This document shows positions 2,352 to 62,151 of a stretch of DNA of 64,000 bases, one piece after another. Source of the DNA: an uncultured Dokdonia sp. (GTDB taxonomy: Bacteria > Bacteroidota > Bacteroidia > Flavobacteriales > Flavobacteriaceae); contig NZ_CANMDS010000001.1 of the NCBI RefSeq assembly GCF_947496725.1, positions 124,001 to 188,000 on the forward strand, written 5' to 3'. The notes beneath the pieces are model-generated. The model did no database searches. It was not told the DNA's origin and was given only the letters and a program-made list of their open reading frames with translations. A program made the position numbers and the translations under genes. Numbering within the stretch: position 1 is the stretch's first letter; the number at the start of each line of letters is the position of its first letter.

Positions 2352-4781
2352 TTGTACGCAATATTAAAAAAGGAAATCACCACATTTTTCTCCTCACCTA
2401 TAGGCTACTTAGTCGTAGGGTTATTTCTAGTGGTCACAGGATTATTTTTATGGGTTTTTGAAGGAGAATTTAATATTCCTAACTCAGGCTTTGCAGACCT
2501 TGCTCCATTTTTTCTTATTGCCCCGTGGATGTTTACTTTCCTTATACCTGCGGTAACTATGCGCAGTTTTAGTGAAGAAAAAAAAGCAGGAACCTTAGAG
2601 CTATTACTCACAAAACCCATTACTACGTTACAACTTACGCTAGGTAAATATCTAGGTGCTTACAGCCTCATACTTATTGCTATTATACCTACGTTAATGT
2701 ATGTGCTCGCTATATATATGCTAGGTAACCCCCTAGGTAATCTCGACGTAGGTGTAACCATAGGGTCATATGCTGGACTTATACTGCTTGCTAGTATCTA
2801 TACGGCATTAGGAATATTTATATCTGCCTGTACTAGTAATCAAATTGTTGCCTTTATTGCATCAGTAGGGCTTTGCTTTTTTCTCTATTTTGGAATTGAG
2901 GGTGTCGTAGCTTACAGCAGCCTAGAGGGTAGCAAAACCTTCTTATCAAGCTTAAGTATTAAATCACATTATGAAAGTATAAGCAGAGGAGTTATAGACA
3001 CGAGAGACCTTATCTACTTTATAAGTGTAACTGCGTTTTTTATCATACTCACGGTATGGAGATTGCAAAAAAATCAACACACTTACGTGAAAATAATCTC
3101 TAACATAACCCAACCGCTACTCTTGTTTATAGGGTTACTACTCATAAACTATACAGGTTCATTTGCGCATAAACGTTATGACCTAACTCAAGATGGTAGG
3201 TATACCATAAGCACGCCTACTAAGGAATTATTAGACCAAATTAAAAGTCCGCTTATCATAGATGTTTTTCTTGAAGGAGACTTTCCTGCAGAATTTAAAA
3301 AGCTTCAGAACGAGACCCGCTACCTTCTTGAAGAAATGCAGGCTCACAATCCTAATATTTACTTTGAGTTTTCAAACCCAGTAGAGGCAGGTGAAACGAC
3401 CGCTCAAGTAGCAGGGCAGTTTAACGAGTTTGGAATGACCACTATCCCGCTTAAAGTAAAACAAGACGGCAAGGAGACTACACAAACTATTTTCCCCTGG
3501 GCTACGATTAATTTTAATGGTAAAGCCATTCCTGTTTCTTTAGTAAAAAATGTGGTAGGATCGTCACCAGAACAGCTGGTTTATGCCTCAATTCAAAATC
3601 TTGAGTATGCCTTTGCAGAGGGGCTTAACATCTCTTTAAATGCAAAGACTAAGCGCATAGCAGTACTACGAGATAATGGTGAGTTACCAGATGCAAAAAT
3701 TGCAGATATGTTCCGTAAGCTGGGCGATACTTATAATATTGCCCCCTTCCCAATGGAGGTGGCAAACCAAGACCCAGAAAAAGCACTAAAAGCCTTACAA
3801 AACACCTTTGACCTCGTAGTTATCGCAAAGCCTACAAAGGCATTTACAGAGCAACAAAAATATGTGATAGATCAATATATTATAAACGGCGGCAACAGTC
3901 TCTGGATGCTCGATGCTGTGGCAATAGAAGATGATAGTCTGCGTAATGATGCAGGTAAAACAGTTGCATTTCCTAGAGATCTCAATCTGGACGATCAACT
4001 CTTTAAGTATGGTGTACGCATAAATCCCTCACTAGTGGTAGACCTCTACTCTGCCCCGCTAAGTGTAGCATCTGGAGAAGGAAGTGAGTCACAATACATA
4101 CAACTACCGTGGTTATACAGACCACAGGTACCTAGCCTTAACACCCACCCTATAAATACTAATATTGAAAAACCGGTACGCTTTAACTACGCAAACCCTA
4201 TAGAACTTCTTGAGTCTAATAATGAACTCTCAAAAACAGTATTATTACAATCTAGTATCTATACAAAGCTAGAAGCAACTCCTAGAGAAATTGCACTTGC
4301 ACAAGTAGATATAGAACCTCAGGAGGCAGATTTTCAAGCAGGACAACAACCACTAGCTGTTTTAGTAGAAGGTGCATTTTCTTCGGCATTTACAAATCGT
4401 GTGTTACCAGATGGAAGTGATAAAGAACGCTTTCGCGAAAGCGCAACAAACCCCTCAAAACTCATACTCATATCTGACGGTGACATTATAGCAAACGAAC
4501 TAGATAGCCGCGGGCAGCCACTAGAATTAGGCTTTGACTACTACACAAGAACCAGCTATGGTAACAAAGAGTTTTTGCTTAATGCGGTTAATTACCTGCT
4601 CGATGATAATGGTCTTATTAACATAAGAAGTAAAGAAATTGCCCTTCCATTTATAGACACCCAGAAGGTTTCAAAAGAGATCACCACGTGGCAAGTCTTG
4701 ACCATTGGGCTTCCGCTTGTGATACTACTTATTTTTGGCGTCATATATACCGCAATAAGAAAGCGTCGTTACGCCCGCTAG
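2352..4781 (+). CDS. gldFG: GldF-GldG fusion: gliding-motility ABC transporter permease plus substrate-binding-like subunit
   Basis: An 809-aa uninterrupted frame. Residues 1 to about 241 are GldF: an N-terminal ILKKEITTFFSSPIGYL, six predicted membrane helices and the EEKKAGTLELLLTKPIT loop. Residues from about 247 on are GldG: a helix, SFAHKRYDLTQDGRYTIS, a long periplasmic region with FDLVVIAKP and NGGNSLWMLDAV, and a final helix near 778-800 with a basic tail. In Flavobacterium johnsoniae, GldF and GldG are separate proteins that work with the ATPase GldA; gldA is not seen here. Translation appears to start at TTG (2352) with no clear upstream ATG. Codons from 4428 are supplied by the CGCTTTCGCGAAAGCG palindrome, read as RFRES (residues 693-697). 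dnaN follows, a neighbourhood also known in other flavobacteria. Confidence 0.85.
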   Translation: MYAILKKEITTFFSSPIGYLVVGLFLVVTGLFLWVFEGEFNIPNSGFADLAPFFLIAPWMFTFLIPAVTMRSFSEEKKAGTLELLLTKPITTLQLTLGKYLGAYSLILIAIIPTLMYVLAIYMLGNPLGNLDVGVTIGSYAGLILLASIYTALGIFISACTSNQIVAFIASVGLCFFLYFGIEGVVAYSSLEGSKTFLSSLSIKSHYESISRGVIDTRDLIYFISVTAFFIILTVWRLQKNQHTYVKIISNITQPLLLFIGLLLINYTGSFAHKRYDLTQDGRYTISTPTKELLDQIKSPLIIDVFLEGDFPAEFKKLQNETRYLLEEMQAHNPNIYFEFSNPVEAGETTAQVAGQFNEFGMTTIPLKVKQDGKETTQTIFPWATINFNGKAIPVSLVKNVVGSSPEQLVYASIQNLEYAFAEGLNISLNAKTKRIAVLRDNGELPDAKIADMFRKLGDTYNIAPFPMEVANQDPEKALKALQNTFDLVVIAKPTKAFTEQQKYVIDQYIINGGNSLWMLDAVAIEDDSLRNDAGKTVAFPRDLNLDDQLFKYGVRINPSLVVDLYSAPLSVASGEGSESQYIQLPWLYRPQVPSLNTHPINTNIEKPVRFNYANPIELLESNNELSKTVLLQSSIYTKLEATPREIALAQVDIEPQEADFQAGQQPLAVLVEGAFSSAFTNRVLPDGSDKERFRESATNPSKLILISDGDIIANELDSRGQPLELGFDYYTRTSYGNKEFLLNAVNYLLDDNGLINIRSKEIALPFIDTQKVSKEITTWQVLTIGLPLVILLIFGVIYTAIRKRRYAR
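4428..4443. repeat. 16-bp palindrome copy 1 (coding)
   Basis: Perfect CGCTTTCGCGAAAGCG inside gldFG, read in frame as RFRES within a hydrophilic stretch of the GldG part. Confidence 0.95.
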
Positions 4782-4820
4782 ATGTTGATAAGTTAATTTC
4801 TAAAGCCGTCGCATTTCAAA

Positions 4821-4828
4821 TATATTTG
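4821..4828 (+). promoter_or_regulatory. Candidate -7 element upstream of dnaN
   Basis: TATATTTG matches TAnnTTTG in the 119-base gap before dnaN and lies about 73 bases before the ATG. No good -33 partner is visible. Confidence 0.35.
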
Positions 4829-4900
4829 TAAGTAGTGTGCAGGTAATTTATTGCATCACTTTATATTCAATTTTCTTGCATAGCAAAACCTAATAATACT

Positions 4901-6093: not shown

Positions 6094-6109
6094 CGCTTTC
6101 GCGAAAGCG
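6094..6109. repeat. 16-bp palindrome copy 2 (intergenic)
   Basis: Perfect CGCTTTCGCGAAAGCG between the dnaN terminator and the M28 peptidase gene. Symmetry extends to 20 bp (6092-6111, TACGC...GCGTA). Confidence 0.95.
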
Positions 6110-9079: not shown

Positions 9080-10255
9080 CTAGTCTGCTACTATTGTTGC
9101 TTTTTTAAGTACAACTTCAAGCGCTTGGTCAATATCTGCCATAAGATCTTTTTTCTCTTCTATACCTACAGAAAAGCGTATCAAGCCATCTGCAATCCCT
9201 TGTTTTGCACGCTCTTCTTCTCCTAGTAGGAAGTGAGAGGTTTGCGCTGGGCAAAGCATTGTACTCTCTACACCTGCAAGACTCATAGAAGGTTTTATGA
9301 GTTTAAGCGCTTTTTGAAACTCCTCTGCATCAATGTGTGGTGCTAACTCGAAGGACATCATACCGCCAAAACCGCTCATTTGCTTTTTTGCAAGAGCATA
9401 GTCAGGATGCGACTTGAGACCTGGATAATACACCTTATCTATTTCCTCCTTTTTATCGAGCCATTTGGCAAGTTTCTTTGCATTTCTATTTTGAGCTTTA
9501 ACACGTAGCGCCATTGTCTTGATACTACGCTCGAGCATCCAGACCATAAGATCACTTAAGCTTCCTCCTAGATTTTTACCTAGGTTCCAGATACGGTCTA
9601 TATGCTCTTGACTTGCTGCAACGGCTCCTGCACAGATATCACTATGACCACCCATATATTTTGTTGCCGAGTGTATCATTATATCTATCCCAAAATCTTT
9701 TGGATTTTGATTTACAGGTGATGCAAAGGTGTTATCTATCATCGTTACAATGCCGTGCTTTTTGGCTAGTGCAGAGACCATTTCCATATCTGTCACTTTC
9801 ATAAGCGGGTTAGACGGTGTCTCTATGTAGATAACTTTGGTTTGTGGGGTTATCGCTTTCGCGAAAGCGGCCTCACTAAGATCTTCTGTAAACGTATAGG
9901 TGATACCATATTTATCAAACTCCTCTACCACAAGGTTATAAGTCCCTCCGTATAAAGTTTCTTGTAATACAATGTGATCTCCACTTCTTAAAAACGCAAG
10001 TAACGTTGTGCTCACTGCAGCCATACCACTGCCAAAAATCATTCCCGCCTCAGTTTTTTCTAAAGCTGCAATTTTCTTGCTTAGACCTTCTTGGTTAGGT
10101 GTATTAAAATAACGTGGGTAGCGCTTTACATCTACATCCATAAAGGCATATGAAGATGACATAAATATAGGAGAAACAGCTCCTTGAAACTGCTCGTCTT
10201 TTACTTCTCCCGTGTGAGTACAAATGGTATTGAGACCCTGGTTTGACTTTGACAT
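9080..10255 (-). CDS. Cys/Met-metabolism PLP enzyme (cystathionine gamma-synthase / gamma-lyase type)
   Basis: 391 aa, fold-type I PLP enzyme. Visible: SSSYAF near 33-38, YFNTPNQEGLSKKIAALEKTE, FGSGMAAVSTTLLAF, IDNTFASP around 173-180, and the PLP lysine in SATKYMGGHSD (K199). The family acts on cystathionine, O-acylhomoserine or methionine; sequence alone does not settle which. Residues 130-134 (AFAKA) come from the 16-bp palindrome at 9854-9869, in the segment just before TPQTKVIYIETP. It is the first gene of a three-gene minus-strand group ending in bshB1; sulfur amino-acid supply would fit bacillithiol synthesis, but that link is inference. Confidence 0.9.
   Translation of the reverse strand: MSKSNQGLNTICTHTGEVKDEQFQGAVSPIFMSSSYAFMDVDVKRYPRYFNTPNQEGLSKKIAALEKTEAGMIFGSGMAAVSTTLLAFLRSGDHIVLQETLYGGTYNLVVEEFDKYGITYTFTEDLSEAAFAKAITPQTKVIYIETPSNPLMKVTDMEMVSALAKKHGIVTMIDNTFASPVNQNPKDFGIDIMIHSATKYMGGHSDICAGAVAASQEHIDRIWNLGKNLGGSLSDLMVWMLERSIKTMALRVKAQNRNAKKLAKWLDKKEEIDKVYYPGLKSHPDYALAKKQMSGFGGMMSFELAPHIDAEEFQKALKLIKPSMSLAGVESTMLCPAQTSHFLLGEEERAKQGIADGLIRFSVGIEEKKDLMADIDQALEVVLKKATIVAD
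9854..9869. repeat. 16-bp palindrome copy 3 (coding)
   Basis: Perfect CGCTTTCGCGAAAGCG inside the Cys/Met PLP enzyme gene, read as AFAKA (residues 130-134). Confidence 0.95.
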
Positions 10256-13229: not shown

Positions 13230-13677
13230 CACAAAACATAAAGACGCCTTCAAGCATCTTAATATAGAATGGCTAGAGACCTATTTTTATGTAGAACCTT
13301 ATGACTTAGAAGTATTAAGTAAGCCAGAAACTTACATTATAAATAAAGGAGGATACATATTTTTTGCCCAGCACAATGATGAGATTGTAGGCACCGTGGC
13401 GCTTATGCCCACACAAATAAACGGTGTATTAGAACTTACAAAAATGGCAGTATCTCCACAGGCTAGAGGTCTAGGCATAGGTCAAAAATTAATGGAGCAT
13501 TGTATCGCTTTCGCGAAAGCGGAAAACCTTTCAAAACTCATACTTTATTCAAACACCGTTTTAGAAAACGCTATTCATATTTATAAAAAATGGGGTTTTA
13601 TTGAGATTCCCGTAGAAGAAAATGCATCATACGAGCGAGCAAACATAAAAATGGAAAAAATAATTAACCATAAATAA
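13210..13677 (+). CDS. GNAT-family N-acetyltransferase
   Basis: 155 aa from a GTG inside the end of hutG. Contains the GNAT core: IVGTVALMP, LTKMAVSPQARGLGIGQKLM (the acetyl-CoA pyrophosphate-binding R/Q-x-x-G-x-G/A loop) and a C-terminal AIHIYKKWGFIE. Acceptor unknown. The palindrome at 13506-13521 supplies AFAKA (residues 100-104) in the helix after the acetyl-CoA loop. The 20-base overlap places it in the hut run, so an acceptor among histidine catabolites or glutamate derivatives is conceivable, but unproven. Confidence 0.88.
   Translation: MNIIPYNTKHKDAFKHLNIEWLETYFYVEPYDLEVLSKPETYIINKGGYIFFAQHNDEIVGTVALMPTQINGVLELTKMAVSPQARGLGIGQKLMEHCIAFAKAENLSKLILYSNTVLENAIHIYKKWGFIEIPVEENASYERANIKMEKIINHK
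13506..13521. repeat. 16-bp palindrome copy 4 (coding)
   Basis: Perfect CGCTTTCGCGAAAGCG in the GNAT gene, read as AFAKA. Confidence 0.95.
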
Positions 13678-15698: not shown

Positions 15699-15714
15699 CG
15701 CTTTCGCGAAAGCG
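15699..15714. repeat. 16-bp palindrome copy 5 (intergenic)
   Basis: Perfect CGCTTTCGCGAAAGCG, symmetric over 18 bp (15698-15715), about 80 bases before the DUF2254 gene. Confidence 0.95.
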
Positions 15715-17189: not shown

Positions 17190-17729
17190 ATGAAAAATTT
17201 GCTTCTTATTGCTTTATGTTTCGCTTTCGCGAAAGCGTACTCACAACAACCCTCATCACAACCTGGTAACGTCATCAAAGATTTTGGAAAAACCTTTGAC
17301 GTACCAGAACCAGATTTTAAAACCGATACTGAAGCCCAATTTTATATTGTTTTTGATGTGGCAAAAGCCCCAGAAGACCCTAGTGTAAGAAACCCATACA
17401 TAGAGACGATGGCTCGCTTTTTAAATATGCACGATAAAGCAGGTGTGCCTAAGGAGAATATGCACATACGTGCAGCTATACACGGCAAGGCGGCATATGG
17501 CGTACTTACAAATGAACTTTATAAAGAAAAATATGGGGTAGATAATCCCAATATTGCACTTCTAGAAGCACTAAACGATGCAGGAGTAGAACTTATACTC
17601 TGCGGGCAAACGGCGGGATCACGCAACATTACTTCGGCACGAAGATTGGAAATGATAGATGTAGCTCTCTCTGCAATGACCGTTTTAAGCCAGTCACAAA
17701 TGAGTGGATACTCGCTTATTGCATTTTAA
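17190..17729 (+). CDS. Exported DsrE/DsrF-like protein
   Basis: 179 aa. MKNLLLIALCFAFAKAYSQ is a signal peptide whose C-region (residues 12-16, AFAKA) is encoded by the 16-bp palindrome. The mature part matches the DsrE/F-like fold: AQFYIVFDVAKAP, RFLNMHDKAGVP, MHIRAAIHGKAAYGVL, and a single Cys in ELILCGQTAG at the position of the family's sulfur-carrying Cys. The frame is open upstream to 17118, but the start at 17190 gives the proper signal peptide. Periplasmic sulfur- or redox-related role likely; partner unknown. Confidence 0.85.
   Translation: MKNLLLIALCFAFAKAYSQQPSSQPGNVIKDFGKTFDVPEPDFKTDTEAQFYIVFDVAKAPEDPSVRNPYIETMARFLNMHDKAGVPKENMHIRAAIHGKAAYGVLTNELYKEKYGVDNPNIALLEALNDAGVELILCGQTAGSRNITSARRLEMIDVALSAMTVLSQSQMSGYSLIAF
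17222..17237. repeat. 16-bp palindrome copy 6 (coding, signal peptide)
   Basis: Perfect CGCTTTCGCGAAAGCG read as AFAKA immediately before the likely signal-peptidase site of the DsrE-like protein. Confidence 0.95.
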
Positions 17730-20634: not shown

Positions 20635-21897
20635 ATGCGTCTCATTTTATTCAAAAATACCCTTTTTTTAACGCTCACACTCTTAATTTCTTGTGCAAAT
20701 ACGGGTGGGGATAAGACCGCTTTCGCGAAAGCGGAATCCAAACAACCCACGACAAGTAACGTAGTAGTCATAGATTCTAGCATTACTGTGGGTGCAAATA
20801 GAACAGAGCTGTACCTCCCATTACTAGTAAATAAAAATGTAGGAGTAGTTACAAACAAAAGTGGACTCATCTTTACCGAGACACTGCATACGGAAGCGCA
20901 AAGTACTCACCTGGTAGACTCCTTACTAAGTATGGGAGTTACGATAAAGAAGGTTTTCTCGCCAGAGCACGGCTTTAGAGGAAATGTAGATGCCGGCGAA
21001 AAGGTAAAGGACGGTAAGGACCCAAAAACGGGTCTCAACATTATCTCTCTTTACGGAAAGAATAAAAAACCCACAGCACAACAATTAGAAGGGGTTGATG
21101 TCTTACTCTTTGACATACAAGATGTGGGCGTGCGTTTTTACACCTACATATCTACCCTCACCTATGTTATGGAAGCAGCCGCCGAAAGTGGGATTCCTGT
21201 CATAGTGCTAGACAGACCTAATCCTAATGCACATTACATAGACGGTCCTACACTAGAAAAAGAACACACTAGCTTTTTAGGTATGCACGAGATACCACTT
21301 GTATATGGTATGACGATAGGCGAATATGCAAAAATGGTAAATGGAGAAGGCTGGCTAAAAGATAAGATCACAGTAGATCTTACGGTAATACCGCTTGAAA
21401 ACTGGTCATACCAGAAAAAGTATGCACTCCCTACAAGACCATCGCCTAACTTGCCTAATGATAAGAGTATCAATTTATATCCTAGCTTAGGTTTTTTTGA
21501 AGGAACTACGGTAAATGCTGGTCGCGGGACAGAGATGCAGTTTCAAATCTTTGGCGCACCAGATTTTCCTAAAGAGCACTTTTCATTCTTATACACGCCA
21601 CAACCTAATTTTGGATCAAAATCACCAAAACATAAGGGAGTCACCTGTAACGGTAAAGACCTACGTGATGAGGCCTATATGAACAGGGTAAATCTTGAAT
21701 GGCTCATAGAAGCCTATGCTGCTAGTAGCAAGAAGGATGCTTTCTTTAAAACAGCCAGTTTTACACTTCACGCAGGTTCAACACAATTACAGCAAGACAT
21801 TGAGGCGGGCTACACCTTTAAGGAGATTAAAAGAAAATGGTTGCCAGGTATAGAACGATTTAAAAAGATACGCTCAAAATATCTAATGTATGAGTAG
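20635..21897 (+). CDS. namZ: NamZ-like (DUF1343) exo-beta-N-acetylmuramidase, lipoprotein
   Basis: 420 aa. Lipoprotein signal with Cys20 (LLISCANTGG); the following linker carries AFAKA (residues 29-33) from the 16-bp palindrome. The DUF1343 core is clear: GVVTNKSGL, FSPEHGFRGNVDAGEKV, LLFDIQDVGVRFYTYISTL, VLDRPNPN, GMTIGEYAKMVNGEGWL, LPTRPSPNLP, FFEGTTVNAGRGTE. The characterised member, Tannerella forsythia NamZ, cleaves MurNAc from peptidoglycan fragments. The start codon abuts the divergent permease start; the gene overlaps the next one by 8 bases. Confidence 0.9.
   Translation: MRLILFKNTLFLTLTLLISCANTGGDKTAFAKAESKQPTTSNVVVIDSSITVGANRTELYLPLLVNKNVGVVTNKSGLIFTETLHTEAQSTHLVDSLLSMGVTIKKVFSPEHGFRGNVDAGEKVKDGKDPKTGLNIISLYGKNKKPTAQQLEGVDVLLFDIQDVGVRFYTYISTLTYVMEAAAESGIPVIVLDRPNPNAHYIDGPTLEKEHTSFLGMHEIPLVYGMTIGEYAKMVNGEGWLKDKITVDLTVIPLENWSYQKKYALPTRPSPNLPNDKSINLYPSLGFFEGTTVNAGRGTEMQFQIFGAPDFPKEHFSFLYTPQPNFGSKSPKHKGVTCNGKDLRDEAYMNRVNLEWLIEAYAASSKKDAFFKTASFTLHAGSTQLQQDIEAGYTFKEIKRKWLPGIERFKKIRSKYLMYE
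20718..20733. repeat. 16-bp palindrome copy 7 (coding, lipoprotein linker)
   Basis: Perfect CGCTTTCGCGAAAGCG read as AFAKA nine residues after the lipid-modified Cys of the NamZ-like protein; symmetric over 18 bp. Confidence 0.95.
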
Positions 21898-25216: not shown

Positions 25217-27073
25217 TTAAAAAGTAATTGTTGTTTGTAATAAAAAGTTTCTTCCAGGGTTAGGTCTAAAAGCAACCGTCTGGTAGTTCGTATTAAATAA
25301 GTTATTGACTCTCGCCATTACTTGGAGCTTAGTACCTTGCTTGTGTAAGATGTCATAGCTTGTCCCTATGTGAGCAATCGCATAGCCGTCTACCTGCGCC
25401 GAGTTATCTGTAGTTGTAAAAACACGATCTACAAAGGTAGTTTGCACATAACTACTCAGCCTGCCATAGTTATGCGCGATACCTAGTGTCGCTTTATGAG
25501 CTGGTACATAGATAAGCTGTTTGCCTCTGGCTACATCTTCGGCCTGTGTATAGGCATACTGAGCAGTGGTTGTAACTTTATGGCTACCCATAATAGCCGT
25601 ATAATCAAGTGCTCCCTCAATACCATAATGCTCAGAATCTGCTATGTTTATAGGTGACCAGATACCGCTCAGATTAGGCTGCCATTGTATCAAATCATCT
25701 GTGTTTATGTAAAATCCTCTCAGTCCTAAAGTGAGGTTTTTACGTGTTCTTTTTAAGCCTATTTCGGCTTGTATGCTTGTTTCAGGTTTTAAATCTGGGT
25801 TACCTACAGCACCTGGTCCAGACCAGTAAGCATCGTTAAATGTGGGGATTCTATAATTTTTTGACGCGTTAAATGTGAGTGTATACGCTTTCGCGAAAGC
25901 GTAATCAAAACCAGCTCCCAAAAGAAATGGGCTATCAAAACCTTCTACCAGCTCTTGTCTAGCCTGAATCTCATAGGTAAATTGATTAGTAAGTTGCTGT
26001 TTCCACAAGGCGACTATAGATCCTTGATTTCTAGTAGTCGAAACGATAGACGCACCAGCTGCCGAAATATGGTTTACCTCACCTATTACGGTAAGTTCCT
26101 TTTTACGATCCAGCTTATAAGTTGCCTCGTAGTTTGCGAGGTAGCGTATAGATTTACCTAGATCATTATCGTCAGTTTGGTTATTTGCAAAATATCGAAA
26201 CTGTTCAAAAATATGAGCCGCACGTAACTTGCCATTAAATCTTGTACCCAGGTTTTCCCATATGGCGAGTGTTCTTGTATTTCTGTCTTCATACCCATCA
26301 TTAGACGGTGCCGTGAGTGTGCCAGAAAAGTTACGATTACCTACATAGGTATTGTGGTGCAGTTTTAATAAATGTGTACGATCACCCTTATTTTTAAGGA
26401 GATAACCCATATTAAAAATGGCGTTAAGATTATCATATTGACCATTTTCATTAAACTGATTATTTGTATCGAGATAGTCAAAATCATTTTCAGAACGTTG
26501 GTAATCTAGGCCGGCATCTATGTAAAAATTAGTATTTGAAAATTGCGTTTTGGCCGTTGCGATTTGAGTATCAAAACTTCCGTAACCTGGGGTTACTGTC
26601 GTGCTCAGTCCTTTATTAAATCTAATATCATTACCTAGATGAACACTACCACCTACTGCTCCAGAGCCATATATAATGCTCCCGCCGCCCGCTCTCACAT
26701 CGAGCTGATCATAATTTTTTGACGATAAGGTATTAAAATCAGACTGGCCAGTGAGTTGGCTATTTATGTTTATACCGTTCCACACGACGGCTGTCTGTGC
26801 CGCGTTAGTCCCTCTAAAAGAGGCAGAGGCTACGCCGCCTGGCCCATTTTCTCTAAAGTATATGGTGCTATTTGCTCGCAACACCTCTGTAAGAGCCGTG
26901 CGCGAGCGCTGTATGGTGCTATCACTTATCTTCTCAAGAGCTATACCTACACTGTGGTTTTTTAACTTTGAGTCACTAAGTATCACTTCAGGTAAAACTT
27001 GAAGTGTATCTATTTGTGCGGCGGTTGTAAGTGCGCATAGCACGACAACAATAAAAAGGAATCTATGTTTCAT
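25217..27073 (-). CDS. btuB: TonB-dependent outer-membrane receptor, BtuB-like (cobalamin)
   Basis: 618 aa. Signal peptide MKHRFLFIVVVLCALTTAAQ, then a TonB-box-like LPEVILSDS and a plug domain (RTALTEVLRANSTIYFRENGPGG, SFRGTNAAQTAVVWNGININ, IIYGSGAVGGSVHL). A beta-barrel follows, ending with the terminal aromatic FLLQTTITF; NPDLKPETS is a typical receptor barrel motif. Its leader is a cobalamin riboswitch, so B12 or a corrinoid is the expected substrate. AFAKA in DYAFAKAYTLTF comes from the palindrome at 25886-25901. Transcribed with the BtuG-like gene. Confidence 0.92.
   Translation of the reverse strand: MKHRFLFIVVVLCALTTAAQIDTLQVLPEVILSDSKLKNHSVGIALEKISDSTIQRSRTALTEVLRANSTIYFRENGPGGVASASFRGTNAAQTAVVWNGININSQLTGQSDFNTLSSKNYDQLDVRAGGGSIIYGSGAVGGSVHLGNDIRFNKGLSTTVTPGYGSFDTQIATAKTQFSNTNFYIDAGLDYQRSENDFDYLDTNNQFNENGQYDNLNAIFNMGYLLKNKGDRTHLLKLHHNTYVGNRNFSGTLTAPSNDGYEDRNTRTLAIWENLGTRFNGKLRAAHIFEQFRYFANNQTDDNDLGKSIRYLANYEATYKLDRKKELTVIGEVNHISAAGASIVSTTRNQGSIVALWKQQLTNQFTYEIQARQELVEGFDSPFLLGAGFDYAFAKAYTLTFNASKNYRIPTFNDAYWSGPGAVGNPDLKPETSIQAEIGLKRTRKNLTLGLRGFYINTDDLIQWQPNLSGIWSPINIADSEHYGIEGALDYTAIMGSHKVTTTAQYAYTQAEDVARGKQLIYVPAHKATLGIAHNYGRLSSYVQTTFVDRVFTTTDNSAQVDGYAIAHIGTSYDILHKQGTKLQVMARVNNLFNTNYQTVAFRPNPGRNFLLQTTITF
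25886..25901. repeat. 16-bp palindrome copy 8 (coding)
   Basis: Perfect CGCTTTCGCGAAAGCG inside the btuB-like gene, symmetric over 20 bp (25884-25903), read as AFAKA in a barrel strand. Confidence 0.95.
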
Positions 27074-38075: not shown

Positions 38076-38091
38076 CGCTTTCGCGAAAGCG
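38076..38091. repeat. 16-bp palindrome copy 12 (intergenic)
   Basis: Perfect CGCTTTCGCGAAAGCG, with symmetry over 22 bp (38073-38094), 33 bases before the uvrB start. Confidence 0.95.
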
Positions 38092-41225: not shown

Positions 41226-41241
41226 CGCTTTCGCGAAAGCG
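41226..41241. repeat. 16-bp palindrome copy 13 (intergenic)
   Basis: Perfect CGCTTTCGCGAAAGCG with symmetry over 22 bp (41223-41244), 28 bases before the amidohydrolase start, in a divergent gene gap. Confidence 0.95.
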
Positions 41242-44255: not shown

Positions 44256-45755
44256 ATGTATTTCAAACACCTACTCACTGGGCTGCTTGTTGTTTCCGCT
44301 TTCGCGAAAGCGTATTCTCAAAAAATCCCAGTACCTGTAGACACTACAATTGTCACAAAACACACCACCACCATAAAAGGAAAAACCATTCCTTATACGG
44401 CAACCGCTGGGTTTCAACCCGTTTTTAACCAAGAAGGAACACCAGTAGCTAGTCTACTTTACACCTATTACAAAAGATCTGACATAAAAGATGATCAAGA
44501 GAGACCACTAGTAATCTCCTTTAATGGAGGACCAGGCTCTGCCTCTGTTTGGATGCACATTGCATACACAGGGCCACGCATCTTAAAGATAGATAATGAG
44601 GGCTACCCTGTACAACCCTACGGTATAAAAAGCAATCCTAACTCGATACTTGACGTGGCAGACATTGTTTTTGTAAACCCTGTAAACACAGGATACAGTA
44701 GAATGTTACCTAATGAAAAAGGAGAAATGCCAGACAAGAAACAATTTTTTGGCGTTAATGCAGATATTAAATATCTAGCAGACTGGGTAAACACTTTTGT
44801 TACAAGAAATAACCGCTGGAGATCACCTAAGTTTCTTATAGGAGAAAGCTACGGTACAACAAGAGTTTCTGGACTTGCCGCAGCGCTTCAAGACAGTAAA
44901 TGGATGTTTATAAATGGAGTGATACTTGTATCGCCTACAGAAATAGGTTTTGACTTTGACGGTCCTGTAGAAGTAGCAAACAGGCTTCCTTACTTTACTG
45001 CGGCTGCTTGGTACCACAATATGCTACCACCAGCATTACAACAAAAAGACCTTACAGAAGCACTAGCTGAAAGTGAAGACTATGCAGTAAATGAGCTCCT
45101 ACCACTTATTGTAAAGTCTGGTTACCTAGATGCATCAAAAAAGGAGGCTGCTATCAAAAAAATGGCATATTATTCTGGCCTTTCTGAAAAAACAATACGT
45201 CAAAACAATCTAGAAGTACCCTTTAACTACTTCTGGAAAGATCTCTTAAGAGATCGTGACGGCCTTACTATAGGTAGACTAGACTCCCGCTATAAGGGAA
45301 TGGATGTAAAAGAATCTGGAGATCGACCAGATTACAATAGTGAGCTTACCTCGTGGTTACACTCATTTACACCAGCGATAAATTACTACTTTAGTCAAGA
45401 GCTAGGATTAAAGACAGATCTATCTTATAATATGTTTGGCCCAGTACGACCTTGGGACAGATCAAATAATAATGCAGGACCAAGTCTGCGCAGAGCGATG
45501 GGTGTGAACCCTAACCTTAATGTAATGATACAGAGCGGTTATTATGACGGCGCTACAACTTACTTTAATGCAAAGTATGTAATGTGGCAGCTTAACGCCA
45601 GCGGTAAACTAGCAGATAGATTAAGCTTTAAAGGTTATAGATCTGGACATATGATGTACTTACGTAATGAGGATTTAATCAAGGCAAATGATGATATACG
45701 TGAGTTTATCAAAAAATCATCTGTTGGGATTGAGAAAGGTGCAATGCATAAATAA
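44256..45755 (+). CDS. Exported S10-family serine carboxypeptidase-like protein
   Basis: 499 aa. The signal peptide MYFKHLLTGLLVVSAFAKAYSQ contains palindrome-encoded AFAKA (residues 15-19). S10 motifs: SFNGGPGSASVW (oxyanion region), FLIGESYGTTR with the nucleophile S198, and a late FKGYRSGHMMYL with the catalytic His; the catalytic Asp is probably in the SGYYDGATTYF region. Serine carboxypeptidases remove C-terminal residues from peptides. Exported; monocistronic. Confidence 0.92.
   Translation: MYFKHLLTGLLVVSAFAKAYSQKIPVPVDTTIVTKHTTTIKGKTIPYTATAGFQPVFNQEGTPVASLLYTYYKRSDIKDDQERPLVISFNGGPGSASVWMHIAYTGPRILKIDNEGYPVQPYGIKSNPNSILDVADIVFVNPVNTGYSRMLPNEKGEMPDKKQFFGVNADIKYLADWVNTFVTRNNRWRSPKFLIGESYGTTRVSGLAAALQDSKWMFINGVILVSPTEIGFDFDGPVEVANRLPYFTAAAWYHNMLPPALQQKDLTEALAESEDYAVNELLPLIVKSGYLDASKKEAAIKKMAYYSGLSEKTIRQNNLEVPFNYFWKDLLRDRDGLTIGRLDSRYKGMDVKESGDRPDYNSELTSWLHSFTPAINYYFSQELGLKTDLSYNMFGPVRPWDRSNNNAGPSLRRAMGVNPNLNVMIQSGYYDGATTYFNAKYVMWQLNASGKLADRLSFKGYRSGHMMYLRNEDLIKANDDIREFIKKSSVGIEKGAMHK
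44297..44312. repeat. 16-bp palindrome copy 14 (coding, signal peptide)
   Basis: Perfect CGCTTTCGCGAAAGCG read as AFAKA before YSQ in the signal peptide of the S10-like protein, the same phase and context as copy 6. Confidence 0.95.
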
Positions 45756-45780: not shown

Positions 45781-45796
45781 CGCTTTCGCGAAAGCG
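45781..45796. repeat. 16-bp palindrome copy 15 (intergenic)
   Basis: Perfect CGCTTTCGCGAAAGCG between convergent genes, 35 bases before their shared terminator. Confidence 0.95.
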
Positions 45797-47930: not shown

Positions 47931-49136
47931 ATGACCAATAAAGACCTCTTAAACGTAGTAAAAAACTACGGTAGCCCTGTTTACGTCTATGATGCAGACA
48001 CTATTACCGCTCAATATAATAGACTTACAAACGCTTTTAAAAGTGTAAAACAGCTACGCCTTAACTATGCAGTAAAGGCGCTAAGCAATTTATCTGTTCT
48101 TCAACACTTAAAAGGCTTAGGTTCTGGTCTTGATACCGTATCTATACAAGAAGTACAACTTGGTCTTAAGGCTGGCTTTACTCCAGATCGTATCATTTTT
48201 ACACCTAACGGTGTCTCGCTAGGAGAAATAGAAGAAGTTGCAGCAATGGGCGTGCAAATCAATATAGATAACCTATCTATATTAGAGCAGTTTGGCACAA
48301 AACACCCAGAGACACCTGTTTGTATACGTATTAATCCACACGTGATGGCAGGAGGAAATACAAATATCTCTGTAGGACATATAGATAGTAAATTTGGGAT
48401 TAGTATCCACCAGTTACCACACGTACTGCGCATAGTAGAAAACACGGGTATGAATATAAACGGTATACATATGCATACCGGTAGTGATATACTAGATATA
48501 GATGTCTTTGTGTATGCTACAGAAATCCTTTTTGAGACGGCAAAACAGTTCAGCGACCTTACTTTTATCGATTTTGGAAGTGGTTTTAAGGTACCTTATA
48601 AAGAGGGAGATATAGAAACTAATATTGAGGAACTAGGAGAAAAACTAGGGAAACGTTTTAACGCTTTCGCGAAAGCGTATAAAAAACCATTAACACTCAC
48701 CTTTGAGCCAGGTAAGTTTCTGGTAAGTGAGTCTGGTAAATTTCTGGTACAAGTAAACGTAGTAAAACAAACTACCTCAACAGTATTTGCCCAAGTAGAC
48801 AGTGGTTTTAACCATCTTATACGACCTATGCTATACGGTAGCCAGCACGAGATACATAACATAAGCAATCCTAACGGAAGAGAGCGTTTTTATAGCGTAG
48901 TAGGCTACATCTGTGAGACAGATACCTTTGCAAATAATAGACGCATCGCCGAAATTTCTGAAGGAGACATACTCGCTTTTGATAATGCGGGTGCCTACTG
49001 CTTTACAATGGCAAGTAATTACAATAGCCGTTACAGACCTGCAGAGGTACTCATAAAAGGCGGTAAAGCTCACCTTATACGCAAGCGAGAGACCTTTGAT
49101 GATCTTATTGCAAATCAAGTTCTCATAGAAGAATAG
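47931..49136 (+). CDS. lysA: Diaminopimelate decarboxylase
   Basis: 401 aa, fold-type III PLP enzyme. PLP lysine in LNYAVKALSN (K49), GLDTVSIQEVQLGLKAG, IHMHTGSDI, FIDFGSGFKVPY (Gly-rich phosphate loop), FEPGKFLVSESG and CETDTF. Converts meso-diaminopimelate to L-lysine, the last step of lysine synthesis. Residues 245-249 (AFAKA in RFNAFAKAYKK) are palindrome-encoded and fall in the helix before LTLTFEPG. A terminator follows. Confidence 0.95.
   Translation: MTNKDLLNVVKNYGSPVYVYDADTITAQYNRLTNAFKSVKQLRLNYAVKALSNLSVLQHLKGLGSGLDTVSIQEVQLGLKAGFTPDRIIFTPNGVSLGEIEEVAAMGVQINIDNLSILEQFGTKHPETPVCIRINPHVMAGGNTNISVGHIDSKFGISIHQLPHVLRIVENTGMNINGIHMHTGSDILDIDVFVYATEILFETAKQFSDLTFIDFGSGFKVPYKEGDIETNIEELGEKLGKRFNAFAKAYKKPLTLTFEPGKFLVSESGKFLVQVNVVKQTTSTVFAQVDSGFNHLIRPMLYGSQHEIHNISNPNGRERFYSVVGYICETDTFANNRRIAEISEGDILAFDNAGAYCFTMASNYNSRYRPAEVLIKGGKAHLIRKRETFDDLIANQVLIEE
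48662..48677. repeat. 16-bp palindrome copy 16 (coding)
   Basis: Perfect CGCTTTCGCGAAAGCG in lysA, symmetric over 18 bp, read as AFAKA. Confidence 0.95.
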
Positions 49137-53670: not shown

Positions 53671-54864
53671 TTACGAAATAACCCCAGAACCAAGACACTC
53701 CTCACCGTGATGCCAGGCTACAAATTGCCCCTCGGCTATGGCTGTTTGTGGGTTGTCAAATATGACATACATACCCCCATCTACTCTATATAAAGTGGCT
53801 TTCTCAAGAGGTTGACGGTAACGTATGCGTGCCTCTACCTGCATTGTCTCATCTACCGCAAGTGTAAGATCTTCTCGTATCCAGTGTATCTCTTCTTCCT
53901 TTACAAAAAGTCCTTTACGGTATAAACCTCTATGGTTTTTACCTTGACCGGTGTATATCACATTATCCTTTACATCTGTATCTATTACAAAGAGTGGCTC
54001 TACCGTTCCTCCTACGCCTAGTCCTTTGCGCTGGCCTATGGTAAAATAATGAGCCCCTTGATGCTTCCCTACTACTTTTCCTTCGGCTACGGTATATGAT
54101 GGTTTTTTTACAAGGTTTTCTAATTCCGCTTTCGCGAAAGCGTTACTAGCCTTCTCCCCACCCGCAACTTCAGGTATAACGGTCTCTGGCACCTCAACGA
54201 TAACACCTTCCTTAGGTTTAAGCTGCTGCTGAAGAAAATCTGGCAGACGTACCTTCCCTATAAAACAAAGTCCTTGAGAATCTTTCTTACCTGCAGTAAC
54301 GAGTTCTTGTTGTAGTGCAATGTCACGTACCTCTGGCTTTTGTAAATGGCCTATAGGAAACAACGTTTTTGCCAGTTGCTCCTGCGATAGCTGACATAAA
54401 AAGTAAGATTGATCTTTATTATTATCTGCCCCAGCGATAAGTTGGTATACTGTCTTACCATCTACCTCTATAGATGATTTCTGACAGTAATGTCCCGTTG
54501 CGACGTAGTCTGCACCCAGTGAAAGTGCAATTTTCATAAACACGTCAAATTTAATCTCGCGATTACATAAAACATCTGGATTAGGCGTGCGCCCCATCTC
54601 ATACTCTCTAAACATATAATCTACAATACGTTCTTGGTACTGCTCACTAAGATCTACCGTTTGAAAAGGGATTCCTAACTTTTCGGCAACAAGCATCGCA
54701 TCGTTACTATCATCTAGCCACGGGCACTCATCAGAGATTGTTACAGAGTCATCGTGCCAGTTTTTCATAAAAAGGCCTATCACATTGTATCCCTGCTCCT
54801 TAAGCAAGTATGCTGTAACACTACTATCTACTCCTCCACTTAGACCTACTACTACCGTTTTCAT
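53671..54864 (-). CDS. mnmA: tRNA 2-thiouridine(34) synthase MnmA
   Basis: 397 aa. PP-loop [28 protein letters not shown], the catalytic Cys pair in NPDVLCN and [14 protein letters not shown], and [21 protein letters not shown]. Thiolates U34 of tRNAs for Lys, Glu and Gln. Compared with E. coli, about 35 extra residues lie between GVIVEVP and [10 protein letters not shown]; the palindrome (54127-54142) encodes NAFAKAE inside this insertion. The 3' end is 46 bases upstream of the subtilase start, on the same strand. Confidence 0.96.
54127..54142. repeat. 16-bp palindrome copy 17 (coding)
   Basis: Perfect CGCTTTCGCGAAAGCG in mnmA, read as AFAKA in a lineage-specific loop. Confidence 0.95.
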
Positions 54865-57372: not shown

Positions 57373-59400
57373 CTATTTTAGTGAGCCATACTTAGATGCA
57401 TACTCTAGCATTTGTGACTCAAAGCTTTCTGGTTGCTGTATAGAAAAACCAGTGATCTCCTCACCATCCATAGTAGGTACAATAGCTGGGTTTACAAAAC
57501 CGCTGTAAGGTGCACTTTTAAACTGGCTGTTACGGTCAAGCACTTCTTTGTGAATGTCTTGATCTACTTGTACTCCATAATCTTCTACAAGATTTTTTGC
57601 AGCTTCATAATCTCCTTCAGAAGTAATGCGTTGTGTTTCTCTAAGAAGTTCTCCAAAAATCTCACGCAGCTTTACATAGTCATTTATGTTATAGTATGTC
57701 TTACCATCTCTAGTAACTTTTTCTATCACATTATCTTCTAGGCCACGCTCGTAAGACCAAGCACTCACCCACTGGCGGTTTACCATATGTGCTTCTTCTA
57801 CCATATCACCAAGTTCTAATCGTATAAGTTGCGTCATAAGACCGTTACGTATGTAACCGTCATAGGCCGCCTTACCAGTTTTCTCCCAGTCTTCTACAAG
57901 ACCTAGTTCTTGAAGTTTTGGATCCATAAGATAGTACAGCCCAAAAAGATCTGCTCTACCCTCTTCTATGGTAGACTTATAACGTTTAAGCGTTTCCTTA
58001 GGTGTACCTACTCCTTTATTAATTTGACCAGAGGCGTGACCTACTACTTCGTGTAGCGCTGTGTGAAGTTTATCTCCTAGTTGACCATATTGCTCCTCTA
58101 GTGCAACCTCTTCTTCATCGTGTGCAAATTCTTTAAGACGTCCAGAACCTCCCGCATTGTTATATGCGTTTATAATATTACCTAGCGATACAGACTTACT
58201 ACCGTGCGTCTGGCGTATCCAGTTATTGTTAGGTAAGTTTACTCCTATAGGTGTAGAAGGTGATGCATCTCCAGCCTCACCAGCAACAATTACTGTTTTA
58301 TAAGAAACACCTTTTACAGTTTCCTTTTTATGCTCTGGCATAAGTGGTGAGTTATCTTCAAACCATTGTGCCTCTGTAGAGAGTACAGCCATCTTTTTTG
58401 ACATATCAAAATCTTTGATTTGTACGATGGTTTCATAAGACCCCTTATATCCCTTAGGGTCATTATATACTTCTATAAAACCGTTTATCCAGTCTATATT
58501 TCCCTCGGTAGAAGTTGCCCAGGCGATACAGTAATCATCCCACGTGTCTAGACTTCCCGTCTGGTAGTACTCGATAAGTAATCCTAAGGCTTTTTCTTGT
58601 TGCTCATTTTCGGCAACAGTTTTTGCCTTTTCTAGCCATCCTATGATATTATCTATCGCCTCTCCATAAAGACCTCCGCTCTTATAGACTTGCTCTACAA
58701 GTTTTCCGTTTTCTTTTACTAGACGTGTATTAAGTCCTTTTTCTATAGGCTCATTTGCATCTACTTTTATGGCGTCATAAAACTGCTCTGCCTCTGCTGT
58801 GGTAACATCTGGACCATAAAAATTTATCGCACTCTCAAGTACAATATCTGCATCTTTAGAAAGGTTTACTTTCTTGCTGTCTTTATCATTAAAAAGTACA
58901 TCAAAAGCCTCACCTTCTAGCGTAGCACCGCTCTCTACAAGTACTTTTTTAAGATACTCTGGTGAGAACGCAGGTTTCATCTTTGCATTGCTATAATGGT
59001 GGTGTATCCCGTTTGCAAACCAGATTCTCTTTAGGTATGTTTCAAACTGTGCCCACTCTTCGCCTGTTTTTTCAACCTTATCTGATGTATATACAGTCTC
59101 AAGAGCCTCTCTAATAGTAAGATTATGTCTGTAGTTTTGTGCCCACATAATATCACGACCAGCAAGACCAGCCTGTGTCATATAGTACACTAGTTTTTGC
59201 TCTTTTAGTGTAAGATCTTCAAATCCTGGTATTTGATAACGTAGTATTTTAATATCTGCAAACTGACCTACTGTAAAATCAAAGTCTGTTGTGGCGGTTT
59301 TTTCCGCTTTCGCGAAAGCGTTATCACCCTTCTTTTCTTCTGCACATCCTACTGCTACCATAGCGGCAATGGCAAGTGCGTATACTCCTTTATATTTCAT
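57373..59400 (-). CDS. Dipeptidyl-peptidase III-type (M49) lipoprotein
   Basis: 675 aa. Lipoprotein signal ending VGC (Cys19); AFAKA (residues 28-32) in the following linker is encoded by the palindrome at 59305-59320. Zinc motif LHEVVGHASG (HExxxH of M49) and the second-motif EEGRADLFGLY with Glu ligands are both present. M49 enzymes release N-terminal dipeptides. Homologues in flavobacteria are sometimes mislabelled dihydrofolate reductase. Start 59400 chosen for the lipoprotein signal; the frame is open to 59445. Confidence 0.93.
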   Translation of the reverse strand: MKYKGVYALAIAAMVAVGCAEEKKGDNAFAKAEKTATTDFDFTVGQFADIKILRYQIPGFEDLTLKEQKLVYYMTQAGLAGRDIMWAQNYRHNLTIREALETVYTSDKVEKTGEEWAQFETYLKRIWFANGIHHHYSNAKMKPAFSPEYLKKVLVESGATLEGEAFDVLFNDKDSKKVNLSKDADIVLESAINFYGPDVTTAEAEQFYDAIKVDANEPIEKGLNTRLVKENGKLVEQVYKSGGLYGEAIDNIIGWLEKAKTVAENEQQEKALGLLIEYYQTGSLDTWDDYCIAWATSTEGNIDWINGFIEVYNDPKGYKGSYETIVQIKDFDMSKKMAVLSTEAQWFEDNSPLMPEHKKETVKGVSYKTVIVAGEAGDASPSTPIGVNLPNNNWIRQTHGSKSVSLGNIINAYNNAGGSGRLKEFAHDEEEVALEEQYGQLGDKLHTALHEVVGHASGQINKGVGTPKETLKRYKSTIEEGRADLFGLYYLMDPKLQELGLVEDWEKTGKAAYDGYIRNGLMTQLIRLELGDMVEEAHMVNRQWVSAWSYERGLEDNVIEKVTRDGKTYYNINDYVKLREIFGELLRETQRITSEGDYEAAKNLVEDYGVQVDQDIHKEVLDRNSQFKSAPYSGFVNPAIVPTMDGEEITGFSIQQPESFESQMLEYASKYGSLK
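59305..59320. repeat. 16-bp palindrome copy 18 (coding, lipoprotein linker)
   Basis: Perfect CGCTTTCGCGAAAGCG read as AFAKA nine residues after the lipid-modified Cys of the M49 peptidase, the same phase and setting as copy 7. Confidence 0.95.
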
Positions 59401-59487
59401 ATGTTTTGTGTAAATAATGGTCGTAAATATAACGAAATTCCACACGATGAATTTTATTATCTTTACCCATAAACCAAACCACCACCA

Positions 59488-60897: not shown

Positions 60898-60922
60898 ATA
60901 AGAAGCACGCACTACAACATTG

Positions 60923-61417
60923 TTATAGTTTAATACGCTTTTTCATTTCTTCTACTATATTAAAAGCAGCTGGGCACATTTTTACATTTTGTAATGTAAG
61001 CTTAGAGATTTGTTGAAATTTCTTTCTATCCGTATGCGGAAACTCTCTGCAAGCCTTAGGACGCACATCATATATAGAACAGTAATTATCTGTACCTAGA
61101 AACGTACACGGCGTTTCTTGCAGTACATAGTCCTTATCTTCATCTATTCTAAGGTATGCGTTTATAAAATCAAATTCCTTCATTCTAAAATGTTTAGAAA
61201 TACGTTTTATATCCTTATCTGTAAATAAAGGTCCCGTGGTTTTACAACAGTTTGCACACGTAAGGCAGTCTGTCCTTTCAAACTCCTCTTCGTGCAATTC
61301 TTGCATTATGTAGTCAAGCTTTTTTGGCGGTTTATTACGCAACTTTGCAAAGAACTTTTTGTTCTCATTCTGCTTATCTTTGGCCAGCTGTGGGAGGCTT
61401 TTTAATACTTCTTCCAT
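60923..61417 (-). CDS. YkgJ-family cysteine-cluster protein
   Basis: 164 aa. Cysteines in CLTCANCCKTTG (C51, C54, C57, C58), TPCTFLG (C104), NYCSIYDVRPKACREFPH (C113, C123): the pattern of the zinc/iron-chelating CxxCxxCC family. Start at ATG 61417; an upstream frame to 61450 overlaps the divergent methyltransferase start and is unlikely. Substrate or partner unknown. Confidence 0.88.
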   Translation of the reverse strand: MEEVLKSLPQLAKDKQNENKKFFAKLRNKPPKKLDYIMQELHEEEFERTDCLTCANCCKTTGPLFTDKDIKRISKHFRMKEFDFINAYLRIDEDKDYVLQETPCTFLGTDNYCSIYDVRPKACREFPHTDRKKFQQISKLTLQNVKMCPAAFNIVEEMKKRIKL

Positions 61418-61440
61418 CGCGCAAAGGTAATAATAAAGGT

Positions 61441-62151
61441 ATGGGTACAAAGGCAGATATTTTTGGGGCAGCGCTTCTTGATTTTATAAATGATGAGTAT
61501 ACAGAAGATATTCTGGTACACTCTTCTATAGCCGAAGATGATGTAATACCTGTTCCTTACCTATTCAGAGATTTTAAAGAAATGCCTCTGCTTGAACAGA
61601 AAGCCTTATCCCTTTCTAAAGGAAAAACACTTGATATAGGGAGTGGTGCCGGTAGCCATAGCCTTTGGTTACAAGAGCAAGGTCTTGATGTTACTGGCAT
61701 TGATATAAGTGAGGGTGCTGTTACGCTTTCGCGAAAGCGTGGTCTTAAAAATTCTATACACGGTACTATACTTGATCACAAGGGCACTTATGACACGCTA
61801 CTATTACTTATGAACGGCACGGGAATATTTGAAAAAGTGCAAAAAATAGATAGCTACTTAAAACATCTCAAATCACTCTTATCGCCGGAAGGGCAAATTC
61901 TCATAGATGGGTCTGATATTGCCTATATGTTTGAAGACGAAGATGGTGGTTTCTGGGTAGATACACATCGTGATTATTATGGTGAAGTTACTTACAGTAT
62001 GAGCTACAAGGGTGAGCAGGGAGACACTTTTGACTGGTTATATCTAGATTATGCAAAGCTTGAGTGGTATGCAAAAAAAAATGAGCTCAAGTGTGAGCTC
62101 ATTTTTGAAGGTGATCATTATGATTATCTTGCAAGGCTATCGCTTACATAG
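61441..62151 (+). CDS. SAM-dependent class I methyltransferase
   Basis: 236 aa. Motif I KTLDIGSGAGSHSLWL, acidic motif II VTGIDISEGAV, and TLLLLMNGTGIFEK as motif IV region. Followed by an acidic FEDEDGGFWVDTHRDYYGEV section. Residues 96-100 LSRKR, in the helix after motif II, come from the palindrome at 61724-61739. Methyl acceptor unknown. Start at ATG 61441, divergent from the YkgJ-type gene with a gap of 23 bases. Confidence 0.88.
   Translation: MGTKADIFGAALLDFINDEYTEDILVHSSIAEDDVIPVPYLFRDFKEMPLLEQKALSLSKGKTLDIGSGAGSHSLWLQEQGLDVTGIDISEGAVTLSRKRGLKNSIHGTILDHKGTYDTLLLLMNGTGIFEKVQKIDSYLKHLKSLLSPEGQILIDGSDIAYMFEDEDGGFWVDTHRDYYGEVTYSMSYKGEQGDTFDWLYLDYAKLEWYAKKNELKCELIFEGDHYDYLARLSLT
61724..61739. 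repeat. 16-bp palindrome copy 19 (coding)
   Basis: Perfect CGCTTTCGCGAAAGCG, symmetric over 18 bp, read as LSRKR in the methyltransferase gene. Confidence 0.95.

Follow-up and report, generated by a model that had tools for sequence, protein, structure and literature searches.

A recurrent palindrome in the window and in its genome

The window analysed here, that is, the whole stretch of 64,000 nucleotides at C1:124001-188000 of the 3.29-Mb assembly of an uncultured Dokdonia sp. (Flavobacteriaceae), holds genes for proteins as diverse as a TonB-dependent receptor, a peptidase S10, a peptidase M49 and an MnmA-like protein, and among and within them a perfect 16-bp palindrome. A first-pass annotation, made from the sequence alone, had listed 19 exact copies, 13 of them genic and six intergenic. 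All 19 lie where it had placed them, the window holds no further copy, and the same split is obtained with open reading frames (ORFs) of at least 100 aa (Table 1). The genome-wide count that it proposed returned 711 copies of the 16-mer in 3.29 Mb and none of the reversed pattern, and each of 999 shuffled palindromes with the same half composition had zero copies in 464 kb of this genome; the 16-mer is thus not a local feature of the window.

Table 1. Copies of the 16-bp palindrome in the window, with the ORFs (strand in brackets) that contain them and the reading frame in which they are translated.
Copy	Position	ORF	Protein or context	Frame	Remarks
1	4428..4443	2352-4781 (+)	ABC_transp_aux protein (Pfam)	RFRES	arms of about 24 nt per side
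2	6094..6109		intergenic		gone in G005; new 14-mer there, about 30 bp off
3	9854..9869	9080-10255 (-)	Cys/Met metabolism pyridoxal phosphate (PLP) enzyme (Pfam)	AFAKA	
4	13506..13521	13210-13677 (+)		AFAKA	
5	15699..15714		intergenic		
6	17222..17237	17118-17729 (+)		AFAKA	behind hydrophobic leader
7	20718..20733	20635-21897 (+)	NamZ/DUF1343 (Pfam)	AFAKA	close to N-terminus
8	25886..25901	25217-27073 (-)	TonB-dependent receptor (Pfam)	AFAKA	one substitution in G016
9	27819..27834	27401-28579 (+)	periplasmic binding protein (Pfam)	LSRKR	
10	30474..30489	30306-30920 (+)		RFRES	
11	32832..32847		intergenic		
12	38076..38091		intergenic		
13	41226..41241		intergenic		
14	44297..44312	44256-45755 (+)	peptidase S10 (Pfam)	AFAKA	close to N-terminus
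15	45781..45796		intergenic		
16	48662..48677	47931-49136 (+)		AFAKA	one substitution in G005
17	54127..54142	53671-54864 (-)	MnmA-like (by eye)	AFAKA	in-place origin within variable loop
18	59305..59320	57373-59445 (-)	peptidase M49 (Pfam)	AFAKA	close to N-terminus
19	61724..61739	61324-62151 (+)		LSRKR	

Half-sites with G-poor arms

The palindrome is flanked on both sides by arms of skewed composition. On the strand read 5' to 3' outward from the core, G accounted for 5.9% of positions 1-10 and 8.0% of positions 11-20 in 106 copies, and for 13.7% and 16.2% of positions 21-30 and 31-40, against a background of 18.9%; the G-poor arm is about 24 nt long per side. Because the outward strand is G-depleted on both sides, the arm on the 5' side of each strand is poor in C and that on the 3' side poor in G. 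The depletion is not a coding effect, since the arms also accompany 114 intergenic copies of Dokdonia and 18 of Nonlabens, taken from a set cleared of near-duplicates (295 to 280 copies). The earlier observation that intergenic copies extend symmetrically as TTA...TAA was borne out, with T at position 1 in 86%, A at position 2 in 89% and A at position 3 in 58% of the 114 Dokdonia copies; TAA at positions 1-3 is common to both genera, position 1 being weaker in Nonlabens. Further out, T peaks near positions 4 and 13-14, and weakly also at 23 in Dokdonia, that is, about one helical turn apart. A 10-bp T component was the largest computed in Nonlabens and second to a 3-nt one in Dokdonia. A 3-base period of the arms was first noticed in the mixed set, where it is partly coding, and a 3-nt A/T component stays in the intergenic copies next to the 10-bp one; none of these periodicities was tested for significance, and no argument here rests on the 3-nt one.

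In the own genome the core contributes about 30 bits and the arms about 7 bits, giving about 37 bits per site when about 11.5 would be needed to single the sites out; these estimates used sites with up to three mismatches, which favours the core. Genome G005 gave 28.7 bits for the core and 5.4 bits for the arms, and the arms were weak in G230 (0.5 bits, 21 sites). Partly degraded forms are few: 464 kb of the own genome contains 109 perfect 16-mers and 27 singly mismatched ones, with 24 of the 27 mismatches in the outer base pair. One class of asymmetric site has one half swapped for a T run (TTTTCGCGAAAGC) and numbers 10 in the same 464 kb, 24 in 400 kb of G005, three in named Dokdonia entries and none in named Nonlabens entries. 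When every kind of asymmetric Dokdonia site was pooled (53 sites), G made up 8.6% of the arm beside the intact half and 15.3% of the opposite arm. Since the G-poor arm of asymmetric sites is found only beside the intact half, the unit is best read as a half-site that has a direction and an arm of its own, and the whole element as two such half-sites placed back to back over about 64 bp. The first-pass annotation had taken the palindrome alone as the unit, a view contradicted by the arms, each about 24 nt long, that flank both halves. It had held that the motif carries no direction, which is true of the whole palindrome but not of its halves, as the one-armed sites indicate. It had also asked whether flanks beyond 22 bp betray a mobile-element family; there is no conserved sequence of that kind, but the G-depletion reaching to about 24 nt had been missed.

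Spacing and gene context

Copies are spaced clearly more evenly than by chance. For 100 copies over 404 kb of the own genome the coefficient of variation (CV) of the gaps was 0.529, as compared to 1.028 under a null model in which the numbers of intergenic (47) and genic (53) copies are fixed; not one of 5000 draws reached so low a value, and only 5 gaps were shorter than 1 kb when 23 were expected. The first 100 copies listed for this genome gave a CV of 0.51 versus 0.99 (0 of 20000 draws as low). Even spacing was likewise found for 14-mers (GCTTTCGCGAAAGC, the palindrome without its outer base pair) in G005 (0-260 kb, CV 0.646, p 0.0004) and in G016 (2.52-2.92 Mb, CV 0.784, p 0.007), and in G230 (CV 0.68, with no gaps below 1.3 kb and 16 expected). 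The 16-mers in the first 340 kb of G016, taken by themselves, were no more even than chance (CV 0.99, p 0.57), on account of a single 38-kb gap; this stretch (G016:C1:282420-320876, L369-L371) has no 16-mer and two 14-mers with a different outer base. An island origin of this gap was considered and rejected, as the stretch is occupied instead by two giant open frames of adhesin-like character (at least 3857 and at least 4951 aa), each with a similar-looking smaller gene pair.

The own genome has one copy per 4.6 kb, and 52 of 108 copies lie between ORFs, which is only 10% of the DNA. Three reading frames are used by 56 coding copies, namely AFAKA (36), RFRES (11) and LSRKR (9), and 14 of the 36 AFAKA copies are at most 50 codons from the ORF start. 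Genes flanking 123 copies were arranged in tandem (76), divergently (32) or convergently (15), in keeping with the share of spacer bases in each arrangement. A role as promoter was rejected for want of any link to the orientation of neighbouring genes. So was a role as intrinsic terminator, the core being followed by TAA and A-rich sequence with no T run and convergent pairs (15 of 123) being as frequent as expected. The one-armed sites of G005 showed no orientation bias (10:14 overall, few sites); with the start of the contig, which has a DnaA-like signature, as the dividing point, the ratios were 4:4 to the right and 6:10 to the left. Density near the G005 origin equals the genome average (60 copies in 400 kb and 505 in 3.4 Mb), and there is therefore no origin clustering of the parS kind.

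Origin and turnover of sites

Sites are well conserved between close relatives and turn over mostly by point changes. Among 96 own sites compared with G016 (median identity 95.7%), 25 had no homolog in the compared DNA and two alignments did not span the site; of the remaining 69, 65 were intact, two had one substitution and two an outer-base change. The same 96 sites compared with G005 (median identity 77.5%) left 43 after removal of 48 without homolog and five not spanned, and these comprised 27 intact sites, four with an outer-base change, two with indels, and others with one (6 sites), two (1), three (2) or eight (1) substitutions.

The gene taken by eye as mnmA illustrates how a copy arises. 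The motif sits within a variable loop that has the same or nearly the same length in most relatives lacking the motif, and among 16 Dokdonia rows (G001 being omitted from the comparison) nine have the exact 16-mer, three a 14-mer with another outer base and four no motif. More broadly, 19 coding sites could be aligned to motif-free DNA, of which 14 were ungapped, one had a small gap and four had gaps of at least 4 aa (one in a leader region, one in the MnmA loop and two at low identity). These 19 were drawn from 236 sites, each contained in the longest open frame (150 codons or more), the frames not having been checked as genes; they include three ortholog pairs, and several matches are distant (29-40% identity). 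The alignments suggest that copies arise in place, mostly without gaps. An origin from a transposon or other insert was rejected on the strength of MnmA and the ungapped majority, and the earlier statement that the copies are not transposon or gene-family remnants agrees with both this majority and the lack of shared flanking sequence.

Taxonomic range

The 16-mer occurs in each of the 17 other Dokdonia genomes sampled, at 138-704 copies per genome. Elsewhere in the Flavobacteriaceae, 18 genomes from other genera were counted: one has 495 copies, one has four and 16 have none, and none was found in 23 genomes from other families of the order. More than 100 copies of the 14-mer were present in five of 299 Flavobacteriaceae genomes (own 905, G011 857, G281 664, G027 578 and G230 408); the others have 0-19, and 61 of the 299 have any at all. 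In a sample of 392 genomes across the phylum, 24 have the 14-mer, and the own genome alone exceeds six copies. Named database entries supplied at least 105 stretches with the motif, sorted as 44 Dokdonia, 46 Nonlabens (including five from strain BBFL7, which we take to be a Nonlabens) and 15 others, mostly single matches. Besides Dokdonia, two further Flavobacteriaceae genera are saturated with the motif, one of them presumably Nonlabens; stretches of the third genus (G230) match named loci at just 64-85% identity. No analogous palindrome was found in motif-free relatives (80 kb from each of five genomes).

The three motif genera do not form one clade on a tree of CarB (gene named by eye, 28 rows), which forces at least two changes. 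The AddB tree also needs two changes and is compatible with one origin; on the DUF5689 tree, too, the motif genera do not group together. The motif was possibly acquired more than once. G184 has nine 14-mers, mostly scattered, on six contigs (C1, C2, C4, C10, C15 and C17), and its genus adjoins the motif-rich G230 on both the CarB and the AddB trees (neither fork starred); these copies could be remnants or an early stage.

Phages and conjugative elements

Sparse copies in other genera are often clustered. Fourteen motif stretches (L247-L260) from seven other Flavobacteriaceae genomes have long similar segments in common; ORFs were listed for four of the stretches. Pfam matches include metal-efflux and P-type ATPase proteins (L247 and L260) and the conjugation proteins TraG and TraM (L252). 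Three more stretches, from G116, hold 12 copies in 60 kb. Taken together, L247-L260 and L372-L374, from eight other Flavobacteriaceae genomes, appear as related metal-efflux elements with the motif at recurring places and few copies elsewhere. Two sites in L247 lie 933 bp apart in an outer-membrane efflux gene, and this spacing is repeated in L249, L250, L257 and L373.

The motif was found in 41 IMG/VR stretches, the GC-rich ones probably being chance matches. Two of the contigs are tailed phages: UViG_3300040781_000495 (L206, L223 and L226) has six distinct copies along with terminase, portal and tail sheath genes, and UViG_3300036669_000050 (L191, L207 and L214) has four along with integrase and tape measure genes. 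Copies in L223 are read as LSRKR and RFRES. No copy occurs in 65.7 kb from two Nonlabens phages, P12024L (35.7 kb) and P12024S (its first 30 kb); their gene maps are near-identical, so they amount to little more than one case.

Competence genes and candidate determinants

ComEC was detected in 12 of 12 genomes and DUF5689 in 27 of 30, including all 10 motif genomes. Transformation of Riemerella anatipestifer needs ComEC, DprA, ComF and RecA, and also proteins with DUF5689, a carboxypeptidase-like domain, HHH and DUF1343 (PMC8459023). In R. columbina, own DNA is favoured, and the k-mer table includes A-rich words (PMC7965970). The DUF1343/NamZ gene of the window (20635-21897, +), from a family needed for R. 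anatipestifer transformation (PMC8459023), itself bears copy 7.

No protein determinant of the motif was found among the candidates tried (RecC, DUF5689 and AddB-like). RecC was set aside as its family (PF04257) is absent from all 30 genomes tested, with a positive E. coli control. Spread of a DUF5689 receptor by transfer was rejected because the motif genera do not come together on its tree. An AddB-like gene (PF12705) is present in 29 of 29 genomes, motif-free genera included, and the AddB tree does not show its transfer between motif genera. The AddB-like proteins of the presumed Nonlabens (L402 and L403) sit on a branch that is very long (2.07 changes per column) relative to those of other Flavobacteriaceae.

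Interpretation

Our favoured reading, to which we give somewhat less than an even chance, is that the motif is a recognition signal that has spread because self DNA is preferentially taken up and recombined. A double-stranded DNA (dsDNA) receptor of the competence machinery would bind the half-site CGAAAGCG-TAA together with about 24 nt of the G-poor outward strand, and with two such units back to back one palindrome would serve both directions. Site-bearing fragments would enter cells and recombine more often than others, and the motif would thereby be driven into all stretches that tolerate it until every piece of fragment size has one, so that single copies would need no function of their own. 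Copy number, two-armed anatomy, even spacing, in-place origin, strong consensus and restriction to certain genera are observations; the existence of the receptor, its part in uptake and a drive by biased uptake, as opposed to selection on each site, are inferences. Support comes from the over-even spacing in four genomes (own, G005, G016 and G230), from the mostly non-insertion origin (MnmA and the 14 ungapped sites), and from the strong consensus with few singly mismatched forms, the excess of bits over need being what a drive to consensus would give. T peaks about a helical turn apart, although of untested significance, would fit as well, since such features have been noted for uptake signal sequences (USS). 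Also in favour are the intergenic enrichment combined with the AFAKA frame bias, the lack of any terminator or promoter link and of one-armed orientation bias (few sites), the presence of ComEC (12/12) and of DUF5689 in every motif genome, and the absence of the motif from P12024L/S along with its presence on conjugative elements and an integrase-bearing phage. Among the candidates of the first-pass annotation, the self-DNA signal fits best, and the replicating selfish insert is disfavoured by the ungapped alignments. Put in full, and held a shade more tentatively, this would be the first uptake or self-recognition signal of Bacteroidota: a two-fold symmetric sequence of about 64 bp, with two directional G-poor-armed half-sites and a receptor unrelated to type IV pilins, spread in Dokdonia, Nonlabens and the third genus through whole chromosomes as well as conjugative elements and some of the phages.

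Several observations weigh against an uptake signal. Known USS and DNA uptake sequences (DUS) are not palindromic, and USS occur at about one per kb (PMC1626085), several-fold denser than the motif. The spacing found here is more even than that of USS, which are themselves less even than compaction sites would be (PMC1939737). The DUF5689 tree fails to group the motif genera, and DUF5689 is also present in 17 of the 20 other genomes. Of 12 genomes, just three (G003, G010 and G281, each a motif genome) have a pilus-type ATPase that passed the cut-off, and the own genome is not among them, which makes a ComP-like pilin route unlikely for most genomes. Our literature search found no paper on competence of Dokdonia or Nonlabens, and phages with up to six copies in 37 kb are unexpected if uptake alone matters.

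The most serious of the other explanations, which we still consider unlikely, is a chromosome-wide site for an intracellular protein (a nucleoid organiser, an SMC loader, or a nucleoid-occlusion- or topoisomerase-like protein), with a dimer on the core, the arms wrapped and the spacing setting loops or coverage. Two-fold symmetry, the roughly helical T phasing, a 64-bp footprint and the survival of 27 of 43 sites in G005 at about 77% alignment identity all suit such a protein, and the over-evenness speaks somewhat for compaction. But it would have no use for some 37 bits where 11.5 suffice, it would have to forgo the 16-mer over 38 kb of G016 (save for the two 14-mers with another outer base), density at the G005 origin is merely average, and most other Flavobacteriaceae genera manage without the motif. 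Rather improbable in our view is a bidirectional Chi-like or self marker, at which an end-processing nuclease would alter its behaviour and which would guard chromosome, conjugative elements and some phages. The density is near that of Chi in E. coli, copies do ride on phages and conjugative elements, the AddB-like gene is universal in the genomes searched, and the C-poor 5' arm could favour RecA loading. Known Chi sites, however, are short, non-palindromic and read in single-stranded DNA; moreover, RecC is missing throughout, the AddB-like gene is equally common in motif-free genera, the few one-armed sites lack orientation bias (10:14), and the P12024 phages have no copies.

Slightly less probable again is an iterated palindrome of the HIP1 kind, maintained by an orphan methyltransferase or a repair bias acting on the inner TCGCGA. 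The motif is indeed palindromic, present in hundreds of copies and genus-restricted, and other HIPs are known from rare cyanobacteria (PMC4390886). But 19 of the 27 TCGCGA in the window are within the motif and the other eight match the base-composition expectation (hand calculation), and a 64-bp element with directional arms far exceeds a methylation site. A mobile palindromic repeat inserting into genes and spacers (of the repetitive extragenic palindrome, miniature inverted-repeat transposable element or Rickettsia type) is very improbable: the hundreds of copies, the use of three reading frames within genes and the insertion-like gaps of at least 4 aa at four of 19 alignable sites might point to one, but most of those sites are ungapped, orthologs show point-substitution states, the flanks are alike in composition alone, and the spacing is over-even.

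A perfect 16-bp palindrome with defined arms, at about 700 even sites of which half lie within ORFs, implies a strong genome-wide force. Should it prove an uptake signal, it would open the competence DNA receptor of Flavobacteriaceae to direct test and provide a first model of how members of this family favour their own DNA; should it organise the chromosome, it would stand out by its copy number and evenness. Either way, the 64-bp sequence is a defined bait for finding the binding protein. The motif is also a possible tracer of DNA flow, since conjugative elements that carry it within motif-poor genera point back to hosts rich in it.

Comparison with known systems

Within the open-licence PubMed Central (PMC) literature, neither the 16-mer nor the 14-mer was found in full text, which leaves absence in print unproven; no paper on such a Dokdonia palindrome was found by title or abstract start, none of the titles listed in broader searches pointed to one, and no uptake-type tag described for this bacterial group was found. 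The likeness to HIP1 and to uptake signals drawn by the first-pass annotation was judged apt, and other systems offer partial parallels. Chi sites (RecBCD/AddAB) have a similar density and, like the motif, are spread over the chromosome, but they are short, directional and read as single strands, and the genomes studied here have no RecC family. The parS and Noc sites are palindromes of 14-16 bp with GAAA in each half; compared with parS, the spacing of the GAAA blocks differs by 2 bp, the copy number here is far higher, and no clustering at the G005 origin is seen. DUS of Neisseriaceae are read by a pilin, unlike what the scarcity of pilus-type ATPases suggests here, yet they too are genome-wide and clade-restricted. 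Their dialects (PMC3630211) resemble the variation of the outer base between species in the motif, whereas their core is 10 bp long, asymmetric and, in the part of PMC1626085 consulted, without flanking motifs. HIP1 is likewise palindromic and highly iterated, but has a core of 8 bp (GCGATCGC) and links to methyltransferases, and the part of PMC4390886 consulted describes no such arms.

The closest parallel is with USS of Pasteurellaceae, which also have many copies, a strong consensus, a non-insertion origin, flank features about a helical turn apart and no orientation bias (PMC1626085), and for which even spacing was reported by Karlin (cited in PMC1939737). USS have a 9-bp asymmetric core with AT-rich motifs on one side (PMC1626085), unlike the present motif, which is a 16-bp palindrome with G-poor arms on both sides, at one per 4.6 kb, in Bacteroidota.

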